From Smittium mucronatum (lineage: Eukaryota; Kickxellomycota; Harpellomycetes; Harpellales; Legeriomycetaceae): 10,227 bases of DNA. Where the stretch lies: contig LSSL01004174.1 of NCBI GenBank assembly GCA_001953115.1, forward strand, positions 1 through 10,227, read 5' to 3'. The notes beneath the pieces are model-generated. The model made no database searches. It saw nothing but the letters and a program-made list of their open reading frames with translations, and was not told the DNA's origin. A program made the translations under genes and the position numbers. Positions 1,260 to 10,227 of the stretch are shown one piece after another (position 1 is the first letter of the stretch; each line of letters opens with the position of its first letter).

Positions 1260-3410
1260 ATTACAGATAATATAGAAAAAAGGAAAATTGTACAAATTAC
1301 TTCAATGAATTAGAAATGGATAAAACTGGAAATAGTATAAGCCCCTCAAAGTGGAAAAAACCTGATGCATATTGACATCGACTACTTCTCAGAGTGTAAT
1401 CACTCTATTTATTGTTCATAAATCAGTTATTCTCTTATTGATACCCTAAAAAAAAGGCTCCGTGATCCGATATCATAACTATTAAATTTGGATGTTTTTC
1501 ATGGAGAAGAAGGCCCCGGCCTCAAATTTAGAAAAGAAAATTGATAAAATTACAAGTTAATATACTGATACTGGGATATACCACTTTATGGACAAAAAAA
1601 AAGAATTGACTGTATCTTGAAAAGAGGGAACATATATATTCGGATGGTTGAAAAAAAATATTACTCTTTCCAACTCTTTATAAGCCATTGGCGAAAATTG
1701 TGACGACCAAATCACCAAAAAGTTGTCAAAAAATATAATCTTATAGCTAAAAGCAGGGGAGGGGGGTTAAGAAATTTATAGGAAAGAACCGTTCAGGCAA
1801 ACACCATCTTTGAAATTATAAAACTCAGAAAAATTAAAAACTTGGATATGATATATAGAATATATCATGGCGTATGATTCGGTACAACCATGGCCTTACT
1901 GTACCTGTTGAGATCAATAGGGATCGATGAAAAAATCCTTAATATAACCAATGGACTATTAAGGCACCAAAAAATATCTGTAAGGATTGATGATGAAATT
2001 TCAGAACCTTCAAAAAAAATAAATGGGATTTACTAAGGATATCCAGCGTCACATATTCTATTCGATTTTTACATCAATGATATTTTTAAAGATATAATTG
2101 GGGTAGAAGAGCCAGGAATAAATCGAAAAATTCCTTGACTGCTTTTTGCTGAAGATTCATTCCTATTGTTTTATTTAAAAGAAAGTTTACAAAAATTGTT
2201 AGATGCATTATCATCTGGTTTAACATCTGGAAAATGAAAATAAAACCAAAAAAGTGTGGGTTCATGAATCTAGACCCCGATTGACACAATAAACCAACTG
2301 TAACAGGTCAAGCTATAACTAGAACAGATCTACATAAATATTTGGGATATATTATGAATATCAAATGGAAAGTTTCATATAATATCAAGCAGAATAAAAT
2401 GAAGACCACTAAAGTATTTTTGCGAATATGGAATTCTGAGACAGAAAGATGTGCTGAAAGCACTGAAAATTAAATCCATCATCCATGCGCTAATTTATAT
2501 TGGTCTTTATGGTGGAGAAAAATTAGGGGTGAATAAAACTAGGTGAAAACATATCAAAAAAACAATTTTTAAATCAAAATTAGTAGTATCTAAAGTTGGT
2601 CGAGACGCTTCTATTGATAGGATTATGTAGAAATTAGGAATAAAATCGGTATTCATCGAGAAAAGCACAACCCGTGAGAGTGCAAGCCTCAAATGAACCA
2701 CCTCAAAAGCGTGGATATTATATTTAATAAATCAGTCCCTCACTGAAAAAAGAAAGCCTGGATCTCCGGGAGCTCCATATAGATAAAAAAATATCGTAAA
2801 AAATAATTAAGCTCTAAAAAATTTCATATCATTGGCAGAAAGAAAACATTAAAATAATCGATCCAAAACACTACTCTGGACTCAGGATCGAAAAATAAAA
2901 CATAAAGGAAACTGAATCGGTTTCATTGGTTTGCACACTGAACTGAAAAAGAGTCCCAATAAAGTTCTAAACTCACGAATAGATAGCTTCTAAACCACAC
3001 AGAGGCTTTGAAACTCAAAAATATTCCCAGATGAATTTATATCTTTTTGTACCTGCTGCAGTCGATATTTAACGAAGACTGTTGAATACATACCCCTAGA
3101 CAGCAACCGATAGCATTAGATCAGATCACATACAATCGAAAGTTTTTCATCGTACCTATCGAAAATTTTCAAGAAAGTTAGTTTCTCTCGTTCAACGAAT
3201 TTTAGATGGAAATAGTTGGCAAACTCTTGGGGAGAGGGGTTATAAAAAAAATTTCAGCTAGCTTCACAGTGGTGCCTCCTATTCTAATCTAGAGTTGGAT
3301 ACATACAGATTTTTTTCTAGCATCCCGGTTGAAAATTCGCTTGTACTAAAAAGATTAAATGAATATATAGCGCACTTGAACCTTTGTTTAACTGTTACGA
3401 AGAAACGTTA
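1260..3410 (+). pseudogene. Degenerate non-LTR (LINE) retrotransposon reverse transcriptase
   Basis: Reverse transcriptase of a LINE, which would copy element RNA onto nicked chromosomal DNA. Landmarks in order: WKKP at 1352-1363, typical of the region before the fingers; LYKPLAKIVTT at 1676-1708, matching the conserved LYK block after the RPI motif; AYDSV at 1870-1884 with the first catalytic aspartate; the QG.P block at 2034-2051 followed by ILFDFYINDIF; the catalytic FADD box at 2145-2156, here FAED; WFNIWKMKI and KKCG at 2216-2260; KYLGY at 2336-2350; the thumb with IHALIYIGLYGGE ending at 2519. A C-terminal cysteine cluster (C.CC, 3048-3059) follows, as in R4/Dong-like LINEs; coding character continues to about 3408. 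The element is dead: stops at 2034, 2136, 2276 and elsewhere, frameshifts near 1881, 2213 and 2431, and one altered catalytic residue. The RT call is firm; the clade is inferred from the thumb and tail. Confidence 0.85.
2034..2156 (+). other. Inactivated catalytic core of the LINE reverse transcriptase
   Basis: Two hallmark RT boxes lie in one frame here. In the usual QGCP box the Gln codon is now taa (2034-2036) and the Cys codon reads tat, leaving stop-G-Y-P. In the FADD box (2145-2156) the first aspartate of the metal-binding pair has become glutamate (gaa at 2151-2153). A second stop, tga, lies at 2136-2138, three codons before the box. These changes show that this copy cannot make a working enzyme. 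Confidence 0.8.
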
Positions 3411-3507
3411 GAGGATGAGATGAGTAGGGTGAGATTTTTAAAGAAAATTTCGCAATTTTTTAAACTTTTTTAAATACGTTTCGAAATAATTTTTATTTTA
3501 AAAATTC

Positions 3508-4222
3508 AAACACTAAAGAAAAAAACGAGAATTCAAAAAGTTAAATAGAAAATATGTACTAATTCGCCTACTTTTTCAAAGAATAGTCTTTAATTCAAAA
3601 GAAATAAAGCCCAGAAGTCGAGTTCCAGAAAAAAGATTGCGAAAAAAAGCCCCATTGGATAATAAAGTTCTAAGAGATACAATATTTAAGCGAAAAATGC
3701 AATCTGCTTGTTCTAAAACCACATTTAGCTTTAAAACCAACCTTTTAGATTTCTAATGTTGAAAAAAACGCAATTTTATATTTTTTTCGTAATCTTCTTA
3801 AATATATATGTATTCTTTATGCCATTTACTAAAAAAATTAGATTATCATAACGGATAATTTGCAGGAAATCAGATACAAATAATAAGTTTTTTAGAGTTT
3901 TTAGCGATTTGAATACCATATATTTCTCTTAGTAAGAATCAATCGAGTCACTGATTCTACAAATAACTCCAATACATGACGTAAAAAAATAAAAAATAAC
4001 TAAATAAGAGTGCTATTGCTATGCATTTTAGTTTTTTTCTTTTCTTTTCTTATTTTTTTTTTGAAAGTTTTAAAACTAAATGTAACTATTTTTATTTTTT
4101 TATATAGAAATTGATACTCGATTTCGAATATCTGGACAAAAATCATAATATAGTCAGGTAGATAATGTATTTCTTAAATTTTATAACTTTTTATAAAAAA
4201 TTGAAACTAAATAAAGATATTA
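3508..4222 (+). repeat. Left arm of the 715 bp inverted repeat
   Basis: This arm matches the reverse complement of 6029-6744 base for base over nearly its whole length. Differences are confined to the outer 20 bp (a few substitutions and one length change in an A run) and a cluster of five substitutions at 3964-3977. The inner boundary is abrupt at 4222. The outer boundary is soft, as a shared tttatttt lies 8 bp outside the aligned edge after a mismatched patch. It contains a pyrimidine-only tract near 4031-4062. A lysine/arginine-rich frame of about 80 codons (about 3517-3756) is open but lacks an ATG and is probably chance. I see no other coding signal. Confidence 0.95.
3756..3963. other. 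Perfectly conserved non-coding part of the left arm
   Basis: This is the longest stretch of the arm with stops in all frames, yet it matches the right arm (6288-6495) without a single difference. It is A/T-rich, with one tatatata-like segment near 3801-3809. I see no promoter or RNA structure I would name. The identity reflects shared recent origin or homogenisation of the arms, because there is no coding frame to conserve it. Confidence 0.45.
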
Positions 4223-4640
4223 AAAATTATTGATTTTATAAGTTTGAAATGATCTCAACACTCGTTTTTGGTTTCATAGATTTATATATTTTTTTGTTTA
4301 TATGATCTTGATATAGATGGAAAACATCTCAGAATTTTTCGTAATTATTTTAAATTCAAAAAAAAAGCCTCTCAAATCATCTTTAAAAGAGCATTTTATC
4401 TCAACCCTAACTATTCAACCCAAGGCTTATCTAAATGCTACACTTATATATTTATTATGTTCTAATTAATAATATTATCGTTGATTCAAATATGAATTAG
4501 ATCTTTTTGTGTAATTTTTGGTCAGGGGTGCCGAATAAGGTTATCATTTCATAACTTTATCAGGCCAGTTAATTTTTTTTCCAAATAAAAACTTATTACC
4601 AATTCTATTTCGATCTTCCTTTAGGATTTTAATTTTTAAA
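4223..4640. other. Core sequence between left arm and integrase remnant, nothing identified
   Basis: Unique sequence without a stop-free frame of useful length on either strand. It lies downstream of the minus-strand integrase and would be its 3' end and trailer. No poly(A) signal or terminator stands out from the A/T-rich background. It shares no visible similarity with the matching inner flank of the right arm, so the inverted repeat truly ends at 4222. Confidence 0.5.
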
Positions 4641-4659
4641 AAATATATACTATATTATG

Positions 4660-5940
4660 CAGTGTATTCTTTGACTGTTTGACCTTATCATATTCTGGAA
4701 AGACATTTTACTATTTCTCATTGACAGCAACAATATAGTATTGGCTTCGAATAAATTTTGAAAATATTCAATACTTTATCCAAAGGCTGTCATATTAGTT
4801 GTGATAACTTCATGTAGTGAGGCATCATCCAATAAATATTTTTCCGGGTATATAATTTCATTGATAGACATGTTACTTTGATTAAATAATAATTAAATAA
4901 CTAAATTATCCAGTATACAATTTTTAAGGCCAATATTTAACGTGTTAGCTATACATTCTTTTTTTTATGTCTTTAGCCCAATAATTTCCTACCAATAAAT
5001 CTACTTTCGTACAATATTCTTGTAAATAAACATATTTTGGTGTAGAAATATTCGGCCACCCTCCATTTTCTGTCGTTTAAGTTTATAAAAAATGCACAAT
5101 GGATAATAACCAACCTTTTTTTTTTAATCGATAAAATTTTAATAATGATATTTAATTTTAAGAAATAAAATTTTAAAATTACAGATTCATGTTTTTTTAT
5201 AAACAAAAAATAATTAGCCTATCTAATCGTTTTCCTCATTTTCTATTATAAGAGCGTTTATAAGACGGTAATATTTACAGCTAGTAAGTTAATTCATGTC
5301 ATTATTTTGGACGTGCATTGGAAGAAAGGAAACAGGTTTGATACCTGTCAATACAATAATGAACTCTACGAATTAATGATCTGAAAATTCTCTCCAATAA
5401 TCCAATTTCACTATCTTGAAAATTTTTAATTTATCCAAAATTTCTCTTTCCGAATTAGATTTTAGAGGAGACACCCAGTTAAAGCGACTGAAATGGTCTA
5501 CAGATGAATAATGCATTTGTAACCCCCACTAAGATTACTAATTATATAAATTATATCTTCTTCAATTATTTTATAGAAAATTCAGATGTTTTTGCTACTA
5601 TTGTTTGTTTTTTTAATAGAAATTATCTTCTCAAATTTAGAGCATATTTTTACAAACACTCTAAAAATATCTTATTTTGGTCCATAATCACAACTAAATA
5701 TTTCTTTCTAGGTTAATTAAGAGCTTTTTTGAGCTAATCCATAATGAAAATCTTCGGTGAATTTGAAAATATCCTCTTTAATGAATATCAGAAGAATATT
5801 ATTGCCTGACATAAAATGTAAAAATTTTCATTCTTTAAAAAGTAGTTTATTTTTAAATTGATTGATTGATTTTTCTTTTGTAATTTCAGTTTCATGATCT
5901 TGAAATGCTTTTGAAAATTCTTAAGATTGATTTAAAGTGA
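4660..5940 (-). pseudogene. Decayed gypsy/retrovirus-type integrase (DDE) gene
   Basis: Integrase or integrase-like transposase, which would cut and join element ends to chromosomal DNA. Minus-strand order: a charged linker (about 5780-5935); a zinc-binding region with His at 5744-5746 and a DIF...V..C block ending with Cys at 5642-5644, partners lost; a LVG block near 5525-5545; SVDHFSRFNWVSPLK at 5504-5460, a hallmark strand of the catalytic core; DYWREF at 5402-5385, in the place of the usual DNGREF box with the second catalytic Asp kept; GIKPV and HVQNND (5315-5298), matching the GI..V....H.Q..G block. A stop at 5291-5289 sits 37 codons after that Asp, where the DD35E glutamate is expected. 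A further frame at 4963-4676 with two stops reads like an integrase C-terminal tail. At least two frameshifts and over ten stops make it dead. The integrase call is good; gypsy, Ginger or Polinton origin stays open. Confidence 0.72.
5385..5504 (-). other. Best-preserved segment of the integrase catalytic core
   Basis: Forty codons without a stop, part of a 50-codon ATG frame (5516-5367). It starts with the VDHFSRF strand, continues through PLKS and an ILDKLKIF helix, and ends at DYWREF. The spacing between the VDHF aspartate and the DYW aspartate is 32 residues, about seven fewer than in common gypsy integrases, so a small deletion is likely. The DNG box has changed to DYW, removing the conserved Asn and Gly. 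Confidence 0.72.
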
Positions 5941-6028
5941 GAGAAAAATTATTATTTGTGGGCATGTAATAATTTAACAAATAATTTGATCATTATATTG
6001 AATATAATCACAATTGGTTAATTATGTC

Positions 6029-6744
6029 TAATATCTTTATTTAGTTTCAATTTTTTATAAAAAGTTATAAAATTTAAGAAATACATTATCTACCTGACTA
6101 TATTATGATTTTTGTCCAGATATTCGAAATCGAGTATCAATTTCTATATAAAAAAATAAAAATAGTTACATTTAGTTTTAAAACTTTCAAAAAAAAAATA
6201 AGAAAAGAAAAGAAAAAAACTAAAATGCATAGCAATAGCACTCTTATTTAGTTATTTTTTATTTTTTTACGTCCAGTATTGAGGTTGTTTGTAGAATCAG
6301 TGACTCGATTGATTCTTACTAAGAGAAATATATGGTATTCAAATCGCTAAAAACTCTAAAAAACTTATTATTTGTATCTGATTTCCTGCAAATTATCCGT
6401 TATGATAATCTAATTTTTTTAGTAAATGGCATAAAGAATACATATATATTTAAGAAGATTACGAAAAAAATATAAAATTGCGTTTTTTTCAACATTAGAA
6501 ATCTAAAAGGTTGGTTTTAAAGCTAAATGTGGTTTTAGAACAAGCAGATTGCATTTTTCGCTTAAATATTGTATCTCTTAGAACTTTATTATCCAATGGG
6601 GCTTTTTTTCGCAATCTTTTTTCTGGAACTCGACTTCTGGGCTTTATTTCTTTTGAATTAAAGACTATTCTTTGAAAAAGTAGGCGAATTAGTACATATT
6701 TTCTATTTAACTTTTTGAATTCTCGTTTTTTTTTTCCAGTGTTT
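6029..6744 (-). repeat. Right arm of the 715 bp inverted repeat
   Basis: This is the reverse complement of 3508-4222. Comparing the two line by line, I found no difference from 6029 to 6273 and none from 6288 to about 6725. The five arm-to-arm differences fall at 6274-6287, and the rest lie at the outer edge near 6726-6744. The linker of the integrase remnant begins inside the core about 90 bp from this arm, so this arm would hold the promoter side of that gene. No core promoter can be told from the A/T-rich background. Confidence 0.95.
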
Positions 6745-7072
6745 ATTTAACCAAAATAAAAGACATCTATTAGGATGTATTTTTTTTAAAAAAAATTAAT
6801 TGGGTTAAAAAAGTGAATTTTATTGCTACAATCTTGATAAAAAATCCAATAATATTTGAATTCTTATTCACACAAAGGCCACAATTACCAATGACAGATC
6901 AAAATTACATAAATATCAAATTCACTTGAAAATATTCAAAAATATATTTAAATCAAACCCACTATTTAATAATCACATCTGCATAGGCATCACAGCCACG
7001 TAAAACACACACATACCTTTATACATTTTAATAACTTAAAACCCCCCCCCCTAAAACAGTTAAAATGTAATA
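6745..7072. other. Right flank of the inverted-repeat element, no gene seen
   Basis: A/T-rich sequence without a usable frame. It contains a run of ten cytosines at 7042-7051, unusual in this background and a likely site of length variation. Directly outside the arm, the first 30 bases do not repeat the left flank, so no target-site duplication can be named. Confidence 0.5.
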
Positions 7073-8341: not shown

Positions 8342-8830
8342 ACAAAAACTATAAGTGCGAGCCCTGAATTTTTTGCGGATGTTAAGATTACATATCTTAA
8401 GAAAGATAATCCCCCAGGTAATAAAACGAGCTTTTCAGAAAATTTAAAAAAATTACAATTAATCCACTCGATAAACTATAATCTGCGAATCAGGTTATGT
8501 ATTCCAAAAGAATATCTCTTTAGTATACAATATAATAACATCTCTGTGTTTTTTTATAAGCCAAAAAAATTCGACAATGAAACCGCATCTACCGATTAAT
8601 CATCTGGAGATGAAGATAAGTAAAATGATTCTGTCGTTGAAGGCTCTTTCATCAATGATCAGAGATATTCAGAAGGATGAAAATATATTAATCAGAAAGG
8701 ATGAGATTACGCTGAGGAATTTAGAAATATTTATAGAAAAGGCCCAGTCTGGGGTTTGAGATGATTTTTGGAAGAATGGTGCTTAGCCTGCTTCTATAAT
8801 TAAAGAGATATAATCTTAAATCTCAAAAAA
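8342..8830 (+). pseudogene. Degenerate coding stretch, family not recognised
   Basis: One frame is free of stops for about 85 codons (8342-8596; SASPEFFADVKITYLKKDN, LRIRLCIPKEYLFSIQYNN) although it lacks an ATG. It then continues with stops at 8597, 8621 and later through an acidic stretch (SSGDEDK) and a tail with KGPVWGLR and LEEWCLACFYN. The mixed, protein-like residue use suggests a former gene. An alternative frame with an ATG at 8577 overlaps the second half. I cannot name a family, and nothing next to it indicates a role. Confidence 0.35.
8577..8759 (+). CDS. 60-residue open frame, helix- or coiled-coil-like
   Basis: ATG to tga, giving a charged product with regular Ile/Leu spacing (MILSLKALSSMIRDIQ, then RKDEITLRNLEIFIEKA). 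It could form a coiled coil. It overlaps the degenerate frame of 8342-8830 in another phase, so at most one of the two is real. Base use does not decide between them, and I recognise no family. Confidence 0.25.
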   Translation: MKPHLPINHLEMKISKMILSLKALSSMIRDIQKDENILIRKDEITLRNLEIFIEKAQSGV

Positions 8831-9348
8831 ATTGATATCTGTGGTAGGTATCATTCCTCATGCTGTGGAGATCCTTTTTTCGAGGAAAAAATGTCTTAAA
8901 AAATAGAACTTATTATATTTTCTAACATAGAATATGAGATATAAATGTTTAAATATACTTCGGACGCATTCTGGTAATTTCTGAAGGTTTTTATGCTTAT
9001 TTAAGTTATATTATAAAAAAAATTGGTCTTCATATTAATTTAAAGAAATTTCTATCAATTATATTCACTAGAAACTATCCAATTTTTTTAGATGCGTTGT
9101 GGAAAATTTTTCTGAAAAAACCAAAATTTTAATCTAGGTGAGTTAATCTGGTGATTCTCACTGAGATTATTTTTTCATTAATTTGAATTAACAATAAATC
9201 ATTTATTAAATATTGAAACAAGATCTCGATTGATATAAGTACCATAGATATTAAATTTAATATAAGAACCATCGTGTATCATTGCACGAGTGAAGTTGTC
9301 TCTTTCAAAATATATTTTCAGTAATCTGAACTAAGCTTGTGATCTTTA
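8831..9348. other. No gene seen
   Basis: A/T-rich sequence with stops in all frames at short intervals. One stretch at about 8832-8895 (SVVGIIPHAVEILFSRKK) is open for around 20 codons only. No repeat, RNA gene or regulatory site stands out. Confidence 0.45.
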
Positions 9349-9669: not shown

Positions 9670-10227
9670 CTATATGACAAAGAAGAGTTGTTTTAGGGCA
9701 TGTAAAATAAGTGATGTATTCTCAAAAAAAAAGTTTTCAGTTCTTATTCTATCATATACATAACCTCGAAAAATGTTGCAAAAGTCAGATATTATAGACA
9801 TACCAAGATTCAGAAACGATTTGCCAAATAGATGCATAAAGGTAGCTGCTATAAAGATAATACTCTTATAGAAATAATATTTTTTTTGTCTAGGGATCGT
9901 AAAAAATATGTATTCAGTATCTATAATACTGGCACAAAAATCTAAACATCTAAATTTGATACTGTCGGGAGCGGATTTCCCATACCAGTTAGACTGGTAT
10001 AAGTCTTCGCTCCTAAACTGTTGTTGTGTAGCCGAAGGTGAGGCAAAGACCAACATACTATTACTAGCATATTCTTCGCCCTCACCCAGAAGAAGCTTTA
10101 GGACAGGTATTACTCCCTTACTCCGCCTATCTACACTTCGCCCATTGCTCCCTGTACTGACAACACTAAGTGTTTGTACAGCACTCACGGTAAGAATAAC
10201 AGGCGAGAACCTTACCGGGGGGTTGGG
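9670..10227 (-). CDS. Hypothetical protein frame, open past the window edge
   Basis: The frame is open for about 185 codons from the window edge to a tag stop, the longest in the window. The only start seen inside is a gtg at 10188; the frame continues upstream of it to 10227, so the true start may lie outside. The first 90 or so residues are Ser/Gly/Gln-rich with no Cys (SAVQTLSVVSTGSNGRSV, ASPSATQQQF) and come from GC-richer DNA. The rest is Phe/Ile-rich and comes from A/T-rich DNA, as if two unrelated sequences were joined near 9955. No family is recognised. The opposite strand is open over the same GC-rich part, so this may be a repeat with two chance-open strands. Confidence 0.3.
   Translation of the reverse strand, partial: PNPPVRFSPVILTVSAVQTLSVVSTGSNGRSVDRRSKGVIPVLKLLLGEGEEYASNSMLVFASPSATQQQFRSEDLYQSNWYGKSAPDSIKFRCLDFCASIIDTEYIFFTIPRQKKYYFYKSIIFIAATFMHLFGKSFLNLGMSIISDFCNIFRGYVYDRIRTENFFFENTSLILHALKQLFFVI
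9908..10227 (+). CDS. Antisense open frame, partial, competing with the minus-strand frame
   Basis: A plus-strand frame opens with an ATG at about 9908 and stays open to the window edge, about 106 codons, directly opposite the minus-strand frame. The product would be Leu/Ser/Thr-rich, with a CCC triplet (LLNCCCVAEGEAK) and TLRPLLPVLTTLSVCTAL. I recognise neither frame, and at most one is likely to be translated. Confidence 0.2.
   Translation, partial: MYSVSIILAQKSKHLNLILSGADFPYQLDWYKSSLLNCCCVAEGEAKTNILLLAYSSPSPRRSFRTGITPLLRLSTLRPLLPVLTTLSVCTALTVRITGENLTGGL
9960..10227. other. GC-rich block at the window edge
   Basis: About 129 of 267 bases are G or C by hand count (48%), against roughly 30% elsewhere. 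The change is sharp near 9955-9965. It carries the only long double-open reading frames of the window. This points to a different sequence unit, such as the end of another repeat family, a host gene exon or a transferred segment, of which only one end is visible. Confidence 0.6.
9982..10000. repeat. Short perfect hairpin, 8 bp stem and 3-base loop
   Basis: ataccagt, a tag loop, then actggtat form a perfect stem at the left edge of the GC-rich block. The stem does not extend outward. It has no U tract after it and is not part of a tRNA fold that I can complete. It may be a chance palindrome or a structure at the end of a repeat. Confidence 0.4.

Follow-up and report, generated by a model that had tools for sequence, protein, structure and literature searches.

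Results

A decayed integrase lies between long inverted arms

The window, by which we mean the whole stretch of 10,227 nucleotides analysed here, contains a compact inverted-repeat element whose arms enclose an integrase remnant (Table 1). An inverted-repeat search of the window returned a pair of 716 nt (3516-4231 and 6020-6735) that is 99% complementary and 1788 nt apart, and blastn paired 3508-4231 with 6744-6020 at 98.5%, which upholds the two near-identical inverted arms described in the initial annotation. The arms stand far beyond chance, because the runner-up inverted pair in the window measures only 50 nt at 72%.

Table 1. Positions of the element and of the repeat that interrupts it, in window coordinates
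Feature	Position	Strand	Remarks
LINE-like repeat, 3' part, old, inserted in left arm	2000..3525	+	Extends further left
Left inverted arm, inner surviving part	3526..4231	+	Outer ~300 nt interrupted or displaced by the LINE-like repeat
Core (spacer) with decayed integrase	4232..6019	-	
C-terminal region remnant of integrase	4960..5127	-	2 stops
DDE catalytic region remnant (VDHFSRF...)	5226..5474	-	2 stops; catalytic-E block no longer readable
H2C2 zinc-binding region remnant	5603..5938	-	5 stops; E 3.3e-15
Right inverted arm, part paired with left	6020..6725	-	About 98.5-99% identical
25 nt in right arm resembling the LINE-like repeat 3' end	6726..6750	-	TTAAATAAACA..., then poly-A
Right arm outer part, unpaired in the window	6751..7007	-	Terminus TGTTTTACGTGG, read inward from ~7007

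The limits first given for the element, 3508 to 6744, need correction on both sides. The right end, which carries TGT, lies near 7007: the outer arms of other copies match 6751-7007, and an alignment of window 7015-6672 with the arm of another copy covers arm positions 6 to 340 (73.6%, E 6.5e-57). On the left, the reported arm starts with about 18 nt (3508-3525) that belong to the A-rich 3' end of a LINE-like repeat, by which the true left arm is interrupted. Symmetric truncation of both window arms was considered and rejected, as the right outer arm survives and the inverted-repeat search displays the shared part only. The LINE-like repeat has 41 matches including itself (the others 64-82%); homology ends at ~3525, with a shared A-rich 3' end. 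It gives a weak RVT_1 match (E 0.006, below cut-off) in one of the three frames of 1801-2762, and the repeat in the window is itself broken, its longest frame being 93 aa.

A gypsy-type integrase on the minus strand of the core, with neither RT nor RNase H, was confirmed, though in a decayed state: the zinc, DDE and C-terminal stretches occupy three different minus-strand frames and hold 9 stops in 251 codons. The initial annotation had named an integrase continuous with gypsy RT and RNase H as the case that would separate it from the arms, and this did not turn up: with the RT/RNase H part (400 aa from the start) of three of the genome's gypsy frames as query, there was no match at E 1e-3 in 34 loci including the window, and the control file for the same search gave 21 matches.

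The same plan recurs in the host assembly

Inverted arms surround the same integrase in 27 distinct copies of the same assembly. A genome search for the arm returned 27 matches, two of them the window's own. Sixteen form pairs flanking the integrase in eight contigs, two of which, C965 and C1635, contain the same loci as C2912 and C1830; a further seven sit no more than about 50 bp from a contig end, and the last two belong to a single interior remnant (C1959) whose integrase match is weak (E 6.5e-5). Integrase-flanking pairs therefore recur in the arm search that had been proposed, and the arm as a dispersed repeat without integrase did not turn up. At two interior loci, C1451 and C1619, no arms were present in the stretch fetched. 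In C1830 the left outer arm survives beside the element, and a further outer-arm match about 3.8 kb past the right arm looks like the result of an insertion into that arm.

Complete elements, of the form TGT...ACA in TATA-rich target, measure about 3.5-4.1 kb, with arms of 852-1019 bp (in C883, C2787, C105, C1797 and C2912) and spacers of 1.4-2.4 kb. Among four complete copies, TGT stands at seven of the eight ends (both ends of C883, C105 and C2787, one end of C1797) and TATA on seven of the eight flanks. The comparison of copies had been proposed to find exact ends and target duplications; a duplication is not separable from the target here, because TATA is palindromic and some of the flanks consist of TA repeats.

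The initial annotation had considered a microsporidian host, which was not borne out. The RF02542 match fits the bacterial SSU model better (691 bits) and belongs to a 106-kb contig with LSU and tRNA matches; we read this contig, with its bacterial-type SSU rRNA, as mitochondrial. HSP70 yielded a chaperone of mitochondrial type and pointed to no species. The nearest named proteins come from Smittium angustum, and the host is probably a member of the Harpellales, an insect-gut fungus.

Every copy compared is broken

Stops or frame changes break the integrase in all 34 loci compared (31 distinct), unlike the gypsy frames of 763-818 aa that are open in the same assembly. No intact family copy was found among at least 72 matches (best-scored candidates), whose open frames reach at most 144 aa, and in the ten loci listed the longest frame that an element contains is 116 aa. 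Fragment L041 matches Integrase_H2C2 at E 7e-4, and L040 matches rve at E 9e-5 (its read-through at E 2.3e-7), all below the Pfam cut-off; an rve profile search of the genome picks up C1797 and C105, below or close to cut-off. The relative P0001, introduced below, scores above cut-off against H2C2 (46.7 bits).

Decay followed a period of constraint. In 45 of 45 pairs of copies pN is lower than pS, which we read as past selection, with a median pS of 0.72 against a pN of 0.28 and a ratio of 0.12-0.75 in the 24 pairs where it was estimable. Low similarity between copies was not used to date the death, given nearly saturated synonymous sites and the action of selection. C1636 and C680 each decayed on their own, as none of their 9 stops is common to both; in the closest pair, C1957 and C300, two of six stop positions read as stop in both. 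RIP-type mutation as the source of the stops was rejected: the arm differences of the distinct copies comprise 144 transitions and 145 transversions and hence no transition excess, a count taken in the arms. In C1797 alone, 18 transitions stand against 4 transversions among the arm differences.

The family resembles Ginger2

Retroelement or Polinton ancestry is one alternative, either as a Polinton remnant or as a piece of a gypsy retroelement that came to lie beside an inverted repeat by chance. Unlike in Ty3/gypsy LTR retrotransposons, the repeats are inverted rather than direct LTRs; none of the 34 loci gave a gypsy RT or RNase H match, and in a tree a 100/98 branch sets the family integrase apart from eight gypsy-type integrases of the same genome. 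A Polinton or Maverick is a large element with protein-primed polymerase and capsid genes, for which spacers of 1.4-2.4 kb leave little room, and neither the size of the complete elements nor their longest inner frame fits that plan. A 6-bp TSD is described for these elements (PMC10045372). The Polinton integrase is reported to lie close to that of Ginger2, yet in the same account Polinton integrases are said to lack the H2C2 region (PMC2836005), which is present here. With the arm-integrase-arm plan the same in 27 copies, we regard this alternative as highly improbable.

Ginger2/Tdd, as described by Bao, Kapitonov and Jurka (2010, PMC2836005), offers a closer likeness: elements of 2.7-6.7 kb with an H2C2 and DDE integrase-type transposase, no RT, TGT termini and an AT-rich TATA target. 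The H2C2 zinc finger and DDE core are present here as remnants. Termini there are TGTNR with a 4-bp TSD in an RTATAY target and no GPY/F motif (PMC2836005); we saw no GPY/F motif by eye in P0001 or in the broken copies. The two differ in that the N-R of the terminus is mostly not kept here (TGTTT, TGTTG, TGTAT), the fifth base being mostly T rather than R, and in that all copies compared here are broken. The suspicion that the arms are unusually long proved correct: at up to 1019 bp they are more than three times as long as the longest published Ginger2 TIR, in a range of 45-297 bp (Table 2 of PMC2836005) that is described and not a stated requirement. Ginger1 differs in its CCGG/CCGT target, where TATA flanks are seen here, and in its OTU or Ulp1 domain, for which the fragments scanned, all broken pieces, gave no match.

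A protein search with one broken copy gave no match, whereas a nine-row profile did. The best organism-named relatives (profile A2) are the hypothetical Smittium angustum proteins BB558_006957 (P0001, E 1.6e-33) and BB558_007364 (P0002, E 4.3e-20), which differ in being known from proteins, not arms, and in a 354-aa model without the first part of the DDE region. The nearest tree group includes an OTU-bearing metagenome protein (P0009). No protein named Ginger2 was returned by protein searches with the family integrase. Judged from these sequences, the family is Ginger2-like, set beside Ginger2 by the published description. The Ginger-like, compact cut-and-paste element first suggested thus stands as regards its inverted-repeat form, its integrase without RT, its TGT ends and its TATA targets, but not as a working copy, since the integrase in the window is broken and the left arm interrupted.

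For fungi, one Ginger2 vestige is described in that paper, in Malassezia (PMC2836005). Our literature search on Ginger2 with fungal TIRs gave PMC2836005 alone and that on Ginger transposons in Kickxellomycotina gave none; papers that mention Ginger, DNA transposons and Zoopagomycota also exist.

Arms within a copy are closer than integrase decay predicts

Over the 27 distinct copies, the two arms of a copy differ at 304 of 18080 positions (0.0168). The 114 stops in 5335 codons of the same copies correspond to d of about 0.10 and to an expected arm difference of 0.178, about ten times that observed, and all 27 copies fall below their own expectation, which is rough, as stops were counted in BLAST stretches with a fixed 0.07 chance of a substitution making a stop. 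Near-identical arms as a mark of youth were accordingly not supported (about 18% predicted, 1.7% seen).

One could still suppose that equalisation of the arms was confined to the active period of the family or to a final move in trans, and that the copies are young with arms that have not yet drifted. The copies are deeply diverged lineages long under selection, and their low similarity alone does not date their death, which leaves room for such a view. Against it stand the ratio just given and the lack of an intact copy among the matches considered; moreover, cut-and-paste carries both arms over unchanged. There is no sign of a recent burst, because the closest two of the 31 distinct loci (C1957/C300) are only 88-89% alike. 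The left arm in the window has been split by a repeat that is itself broken, yet the arms match at about 98.5-99%, and arm differences gather towards the core. We therefore consider a young family improbable.

Conversion leaves a further trace between copies. In the four closest pairs, with the same arm compared between copies, arms are 97.5-99.4% identical within a copy against 92-95% between copies (C1957/C300), 91.7 and 98.4% against 84-86% (C1636/C680), 99.9 and 100% against 81-83% (C110/C1198) and 99.0-99.7% against 77-79% (C2342/C82). Within-copy arms could not otherwise be the closer ones; this comparison of sequences shows conversion, though it does not by itself place that conversion after the death of the integrase. 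Differences are concentrated near the core, with 117 of 234 in the inner third (p 1.5e-7, which is optimistic, the 27 copies being relatives chosen for their similarity); inner differences exceed outer ones in 14 copies and the reverse holds in 4, and without C1830 the counts are 87 inner and 56 outer of 191. There was no sign of GC-biased conversion, arm GC exceeding spacer GC in one of 27 copies. C1830/C1635 and C1256/C203 were tried as an allelic test and set aside, as the compared stretches are 100% identical and uninformative on conversion.

An inverted core and sequence beyond the arms

In contigs C2912 and C965, flanks of 617 and 638 bp are 100% identical in one orientation and the 1881 bp spacer is 100% identical in the other; about 86 bp past the expected terminus are identical on both sides, and the flanks have no match elsewhere in the genome. 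Two assembly paths through a 1-kb inverted repeat could give the same picture.

The arm identity, or this inverted contig pair, might indeed be a product of assembly in which similar arms were collapsed and one sequence used twice. The arms do trouble the assembler, because contigs C840, C1781, C1670, C1992, C447, C2808 and C1902 terminate within an arm or near one, and the overlaps of C1830/C1635 and of C1256/C203 take in most of an element; the SNP-free flanks of C2912/C965 also fit alternative paths. However, arm identity spans 87 to 100%, with differences commoner near the core, and unpaired outer arm parts are kept in the window and in C1830, which wholesale collapse would not leave. An assembly origin thus appears quite improbable.

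The 25 nt at 6726..6750 were probably carried over from the LINE tail in the left arm by gene conversion. The resemblance is short, AT-rich and diverged, and its position is the stronger argument. When the poly-A is left off, the remaining 15 nt are equalled by 40 and 30 of 5000 Markov shuffles in their score against two copies of the repeat. In the comparison with the window's own left tail, 986 and 1199 of 5000 shuffles match the score; for the full 25-mer they do so in 1686 of 5000 against C1504 and 82 of 5000 against C67.

Discussion

We consider it likely that the copy in the window is a dead DNA transposon of a Ginger2-like family in which arm-to-arm conversion within the copy outlasted the integrase. 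During its active life the element would have moved by cut-and-paste with its own integrase, the mode put forward for Ginger elements. Within a copy, the two arms may correct each other by acting as mutual templates, perhaps when they pair by folding back, and this correction would carry on past the death of the integrase; the arms would remain near-identical while the core and other copies drift because conversion went on. Occasional crossovers between arms could invert the core, and conversion tracts might sometimes extend past the region of arm homology. Such an overrun would probably have copied the final ~25 nt of the LINE-like repeat from the left arm of the window copy into its right arm, and in C2912/C965 the roughly 86 bp beyond the terminus may represent a tract overrunning the arm.

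Comparable behaviour is known from other inverted repeats. In sex-chromosome palindromes, inverted-repeat structure is reportedly conserved beyond sequence and explained by an active mechanism or arm-to-arm conversion. The maintained inverted repeats of Caenorhabditis are likewise described as conserved in structure beyond sequence, with an active mechanism or arm-to-arm conversion invoked (PMC1803023). Those systems are gene-bearing duplications or large palindromes, whereas the copies here are dead transposons. Galileo, a Foldback-like element of Drosophila, has long arms, and the two TIRs of one copy are 98-100% identical; it differs in its P-element-like transposase, its internally repetitive arms and a mean TIR identity between copies of 92-97% within the listed subfamilies (79% for chimeric copies), against mostly 66-80% here (PMC3573991). 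Inversion of an element between its flanks by TIR-TIR recombination, as proposed here, is described for Wolbachia insertion sequences (PMC3004938), which are bacterial, in contrast to the kilobase arms of a eukaryote.

A bolder reading, which we find possible but rather doubtful, is that dead long-arm transposons in this genome are self-templating inverted repeats, in which conversion, lasting well beyond loss of the transposase, flips the core and copies a LINE tail or flank into the opposite arm. If true, a palindrome would shift its borders and grow without transposition. An inverted-repeat element with near-identical arms is readily judged young, and over two dozen broken copies show that this error is possible. 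The family further brings in, from a probable fungus, a Ginger2-like lineage whose arms reach kilobase length, and its many copies of comparable size could serve as natural replicates for measuring how fast conversion between inverted repeats proceeds, how long its tracts are and how it behaves at their edges.

Results

A repeat search of the window returned two arms of 716 nt, 99% complementary and 1788 nt apart, and the second-best inverted pair was 50 nt long at 72%. The minus strand of the core retains the zinc, DDE and C-terminal stretches of an integrase, each in its own frame and together with 9 stops over 251 codons, which bears out the inverted arms and integrase core described in the initial annotation. 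The left end proposed there does not stand, as it is partly the tail of a LINE-like repeat, which has 41 assembly matches, reaches about 3525 from the left and interrupts the left arm. We term the repeat LINE-like because one of three frames matches RVT_1 weakly, below the cut-off (E 0.006). An A-rich tail ends it, as in two other copies of that repeat.

Features located in the window and in other stretches of the assembly (C, contigs; L, fetched stretches)
Feature	Stretch	Position	Observation
Left arm	window	3516-4231	
Right arm	window	6020-6735	
Right-arm extension	window	7015-6672	aligns with positions 6 to 340 of another copy's arm, so the arm extends outward
Outer right arm	window	6751-7007	matches outer arms of other copies
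LINE-like repeat	window	2000-3525	old; other assembly matches 64-82%; 3' end inside transposon left arm
RVT_1 match	window	1801-2762	
25-mer	window	6726-6750	resembles 3' end of LINE-like repeat
Contig end	window	9670-10227	GC-richer; overlapping open frames, 185 aa (minus) and 116 aa (plus); unlike remaining window
Possible right-arm insertion	C1830	4724-8570	about 3.8 kb between inner right arm and further outer-arm match (8570-8833); looks like insertion into arm
Palindrome	L008	2405-3142	3' side of gypsy element; 82.5% match to own reverse complement over 738 bp; spacerless
rRNA/tRNA contig	L083 (C2957)	11793-16238	SSU, LSU and tRNA matches on a 106-kb contig; interpreted as mitochondrial genome

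The assembly (73.8 Mb, 2957 contigs), in which the window is contig C2030, was searched with the left arm, as the initial annotation had suggested, and other arm pairs were indeed found. Beyond the window's own two arms, the 27 matches comprised 16 that pair up (C2787, C2912, C965, C1622, C1797, C105, C1830 and C1635), seven at contig ends or within about 50 bp of them, and two pieces in C1959. With the core as query, 12 matches were obtained including the window, the others at 67-83%, and all paired arm loci were among them. A 94-aa integrase piece from C1797 gave 72 matches, some being pieces of one copy, and the longest open frame around any of them was 144 aa. We opened the loci of the 30 best integrase matches and, with those from the arm and core searches, had 34 loci for comparison, or 31 distinct loci once the duplicate contigs C965, C1635 and C203 were set aside. 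Inverted arms were present in 30 of the 34 (27 of the 31); as for the other four, C2454 ends inside the match, C2441 ends at most about 400 bp away, and C1451 and C1619 are interior. Among distinct loci, 66 of 465 pairs had a match at least 200 bp long (64 to 95% identity, median 71%). Between-copy arm matches were mostly 66-80%, with three closer pairs (C1957/C300, C1636/C680 and C110/C1198), and arms from different subfamilies gave no alignment at the settings used.

TATA adjoins TGT at both ends of C883 and C105; in C1797 both flanks carry TATA and one end has a mutated TGT, and C2787 has TGT at both ends with TATA on one side only. The Ginger2/Tdd description by Bao and colleagues gives TGTNR termini, an RTATAY target, H2C2 and DDE motifs, no RT and TIRs of 45-297 bp (PMC2836005). 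The TGT ends and TATA flanks agree with this, whereas the fifth terminal base is mostly not R and the arms are far longer, at 852-960 bp (C883, C105, C1797, C2787) and 1019 bp (C2912). We call the family Ginger2-like, as a candidate member of Ginger2/Tdd by these published features. The top matches of a nine-row DDE profile were two Smittium angustum proteins (E 1.6e-33 and 4.3e-20). In a 25-row tree, the 11 family rows grouped together (100/98), separately from eight gypsy-type integrases taken from this genome, and the nearest other rows were P0003, P0006 and the metagenome protein P0009 (joint branch 96/96). P0009 contains an OTU domain; in P0009 and another metagenome protein, P0007, an OTU-like region lies N-terminal to an integrase, or to a part aligning with the integrase N-terminal part, whereas the published Ginger1 OTU is C-terminal. 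In size the assembly, and in base composition the fetched stretches (19-29% GC), resemble true Smittium genomes, which are given as 71-102 Mb with 26-29% GC (PMC5954228). A gut fungus of the Harpellales is thus the probable host.

The integrase carries stops or frame changes in all 34 loci. Gypsy frames of 763-818 aa are open in fetched stretches of the same assembly, which is therefore not simply error-ridden. From three of these open frames, the probability of a stop per substitution was put at 0.054-0.083 by frame and mutation model, and 0.07 was used. On this basis, 114 stops in 5335 codons over 27 copies correspond to about 0.10 substitutions per site after the loss of constraint, and therefore to an expected arm difference of 0.178, which is if anything low because stops were counted in BLAST stretches, which favour few stops. 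The observed difference was 304/18080, or 0.0168. All 27 copies undershot their own expectation, C1797 only slightly (22 vs 30), and C883, C2262, C110 and C1198 had zero substitutions between arms of 661-852 bp.

Any two copies presumably descend from an ancestor that already had both arms. In the absence of conversion, the within-copy difference should therefore equal or exceed the between-copy difference for the same arm. The reverse was found in all four closest pairs of copies, and few of their stops are common, so most are private to one copy.

Arm identity and common stops in the four closest pairs of copies
Pair	Within-copy arms	Between-copy arms	Stops common to both
C1957/C300	97.5-99.4%	92-95%	2/6 positions
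C1636/C680	91.7 and 98.4%	84-86%	0/9
C110/C1198	99.9 and 100%	81-83%	1/6
C2342/C82	99.0-99.7%	77-79%	1/6

In the DDE stretches of ten copies, all 45 pairs had a lower pN than pS (medians 0.28 and 0.72, pS near saturation). Thus many diverged lineages were active and under selection before death, and low between-copy similarity is no measure of time since death.

With 20 columns trimmed off each arm edge, 117 of 234 differences fell in the inner (core-side) third, 54 in the middle and 63 in the outer third (p 1.5e-7, only a guide since copies are not fully independent). Inner exceeded outer in 14 and outer exceeded inner in 4 of the 20 copies having any difference. Leaving out C1830 gives 87 inner vs 56 outer of 191. 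This excess is consistent with conversion fading near the core.

C2912 and C965 are one locus in two contigs, with a 1.9-kb core inverted at 100% identity. The left (617 bp) and right (638 bp) flanks are 100% identical in the same orientation and have no matches in the assembly beyond these two contigs, and 1881 bp of spacer is 100% identical in the opposite orientation. Arm-to-arm crossing over would invert the core in this way, and the two orientations could also be two assembly paths. The arms of this locus pass the TGT point of other copies by about 86 bp, identical on both sides.

In the window, the 25-mer breaks the native right-arm sequence and sits at exactly the position at which the LINE-like repeat joins the left arm. 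With poly-A excluded, the remaining 15 nt were equalled by 40 and 30 Markov shuffles out of 5000 when set against two repeat copies; the full 25-mer was equalled by 82 of 5000 against C67, but by 1686 against C1504. Neither the 15 nt nor the 25-mer stands out when compared with the diverged left tail in the window itself (986 and 1199 of 5000). Carry-over of the repeat tail into the right arm is our best reading, not a proven one, and is preferred because the 25-mer and the repeat junction share their position.

Discussion

The element is of an ordinary kind, a Ginger2-like transposon, with arms of unusual length, and the family stands out in that its arms remain alike once the copies are dead. 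Parallels exist in earlier reports: Galileo likewise has long near-identical arms within one copy, its long TIRs being 98-100% identical (PMC3573991), maintained inverted repeats are known in Caenorhabditis (PMC1803023), and TIR-TIR inversions are known in bacterial IS (PMC3004938). The present family adds a series of copies that are plainly dead, so that arm maintenance can be told apart from transposition.
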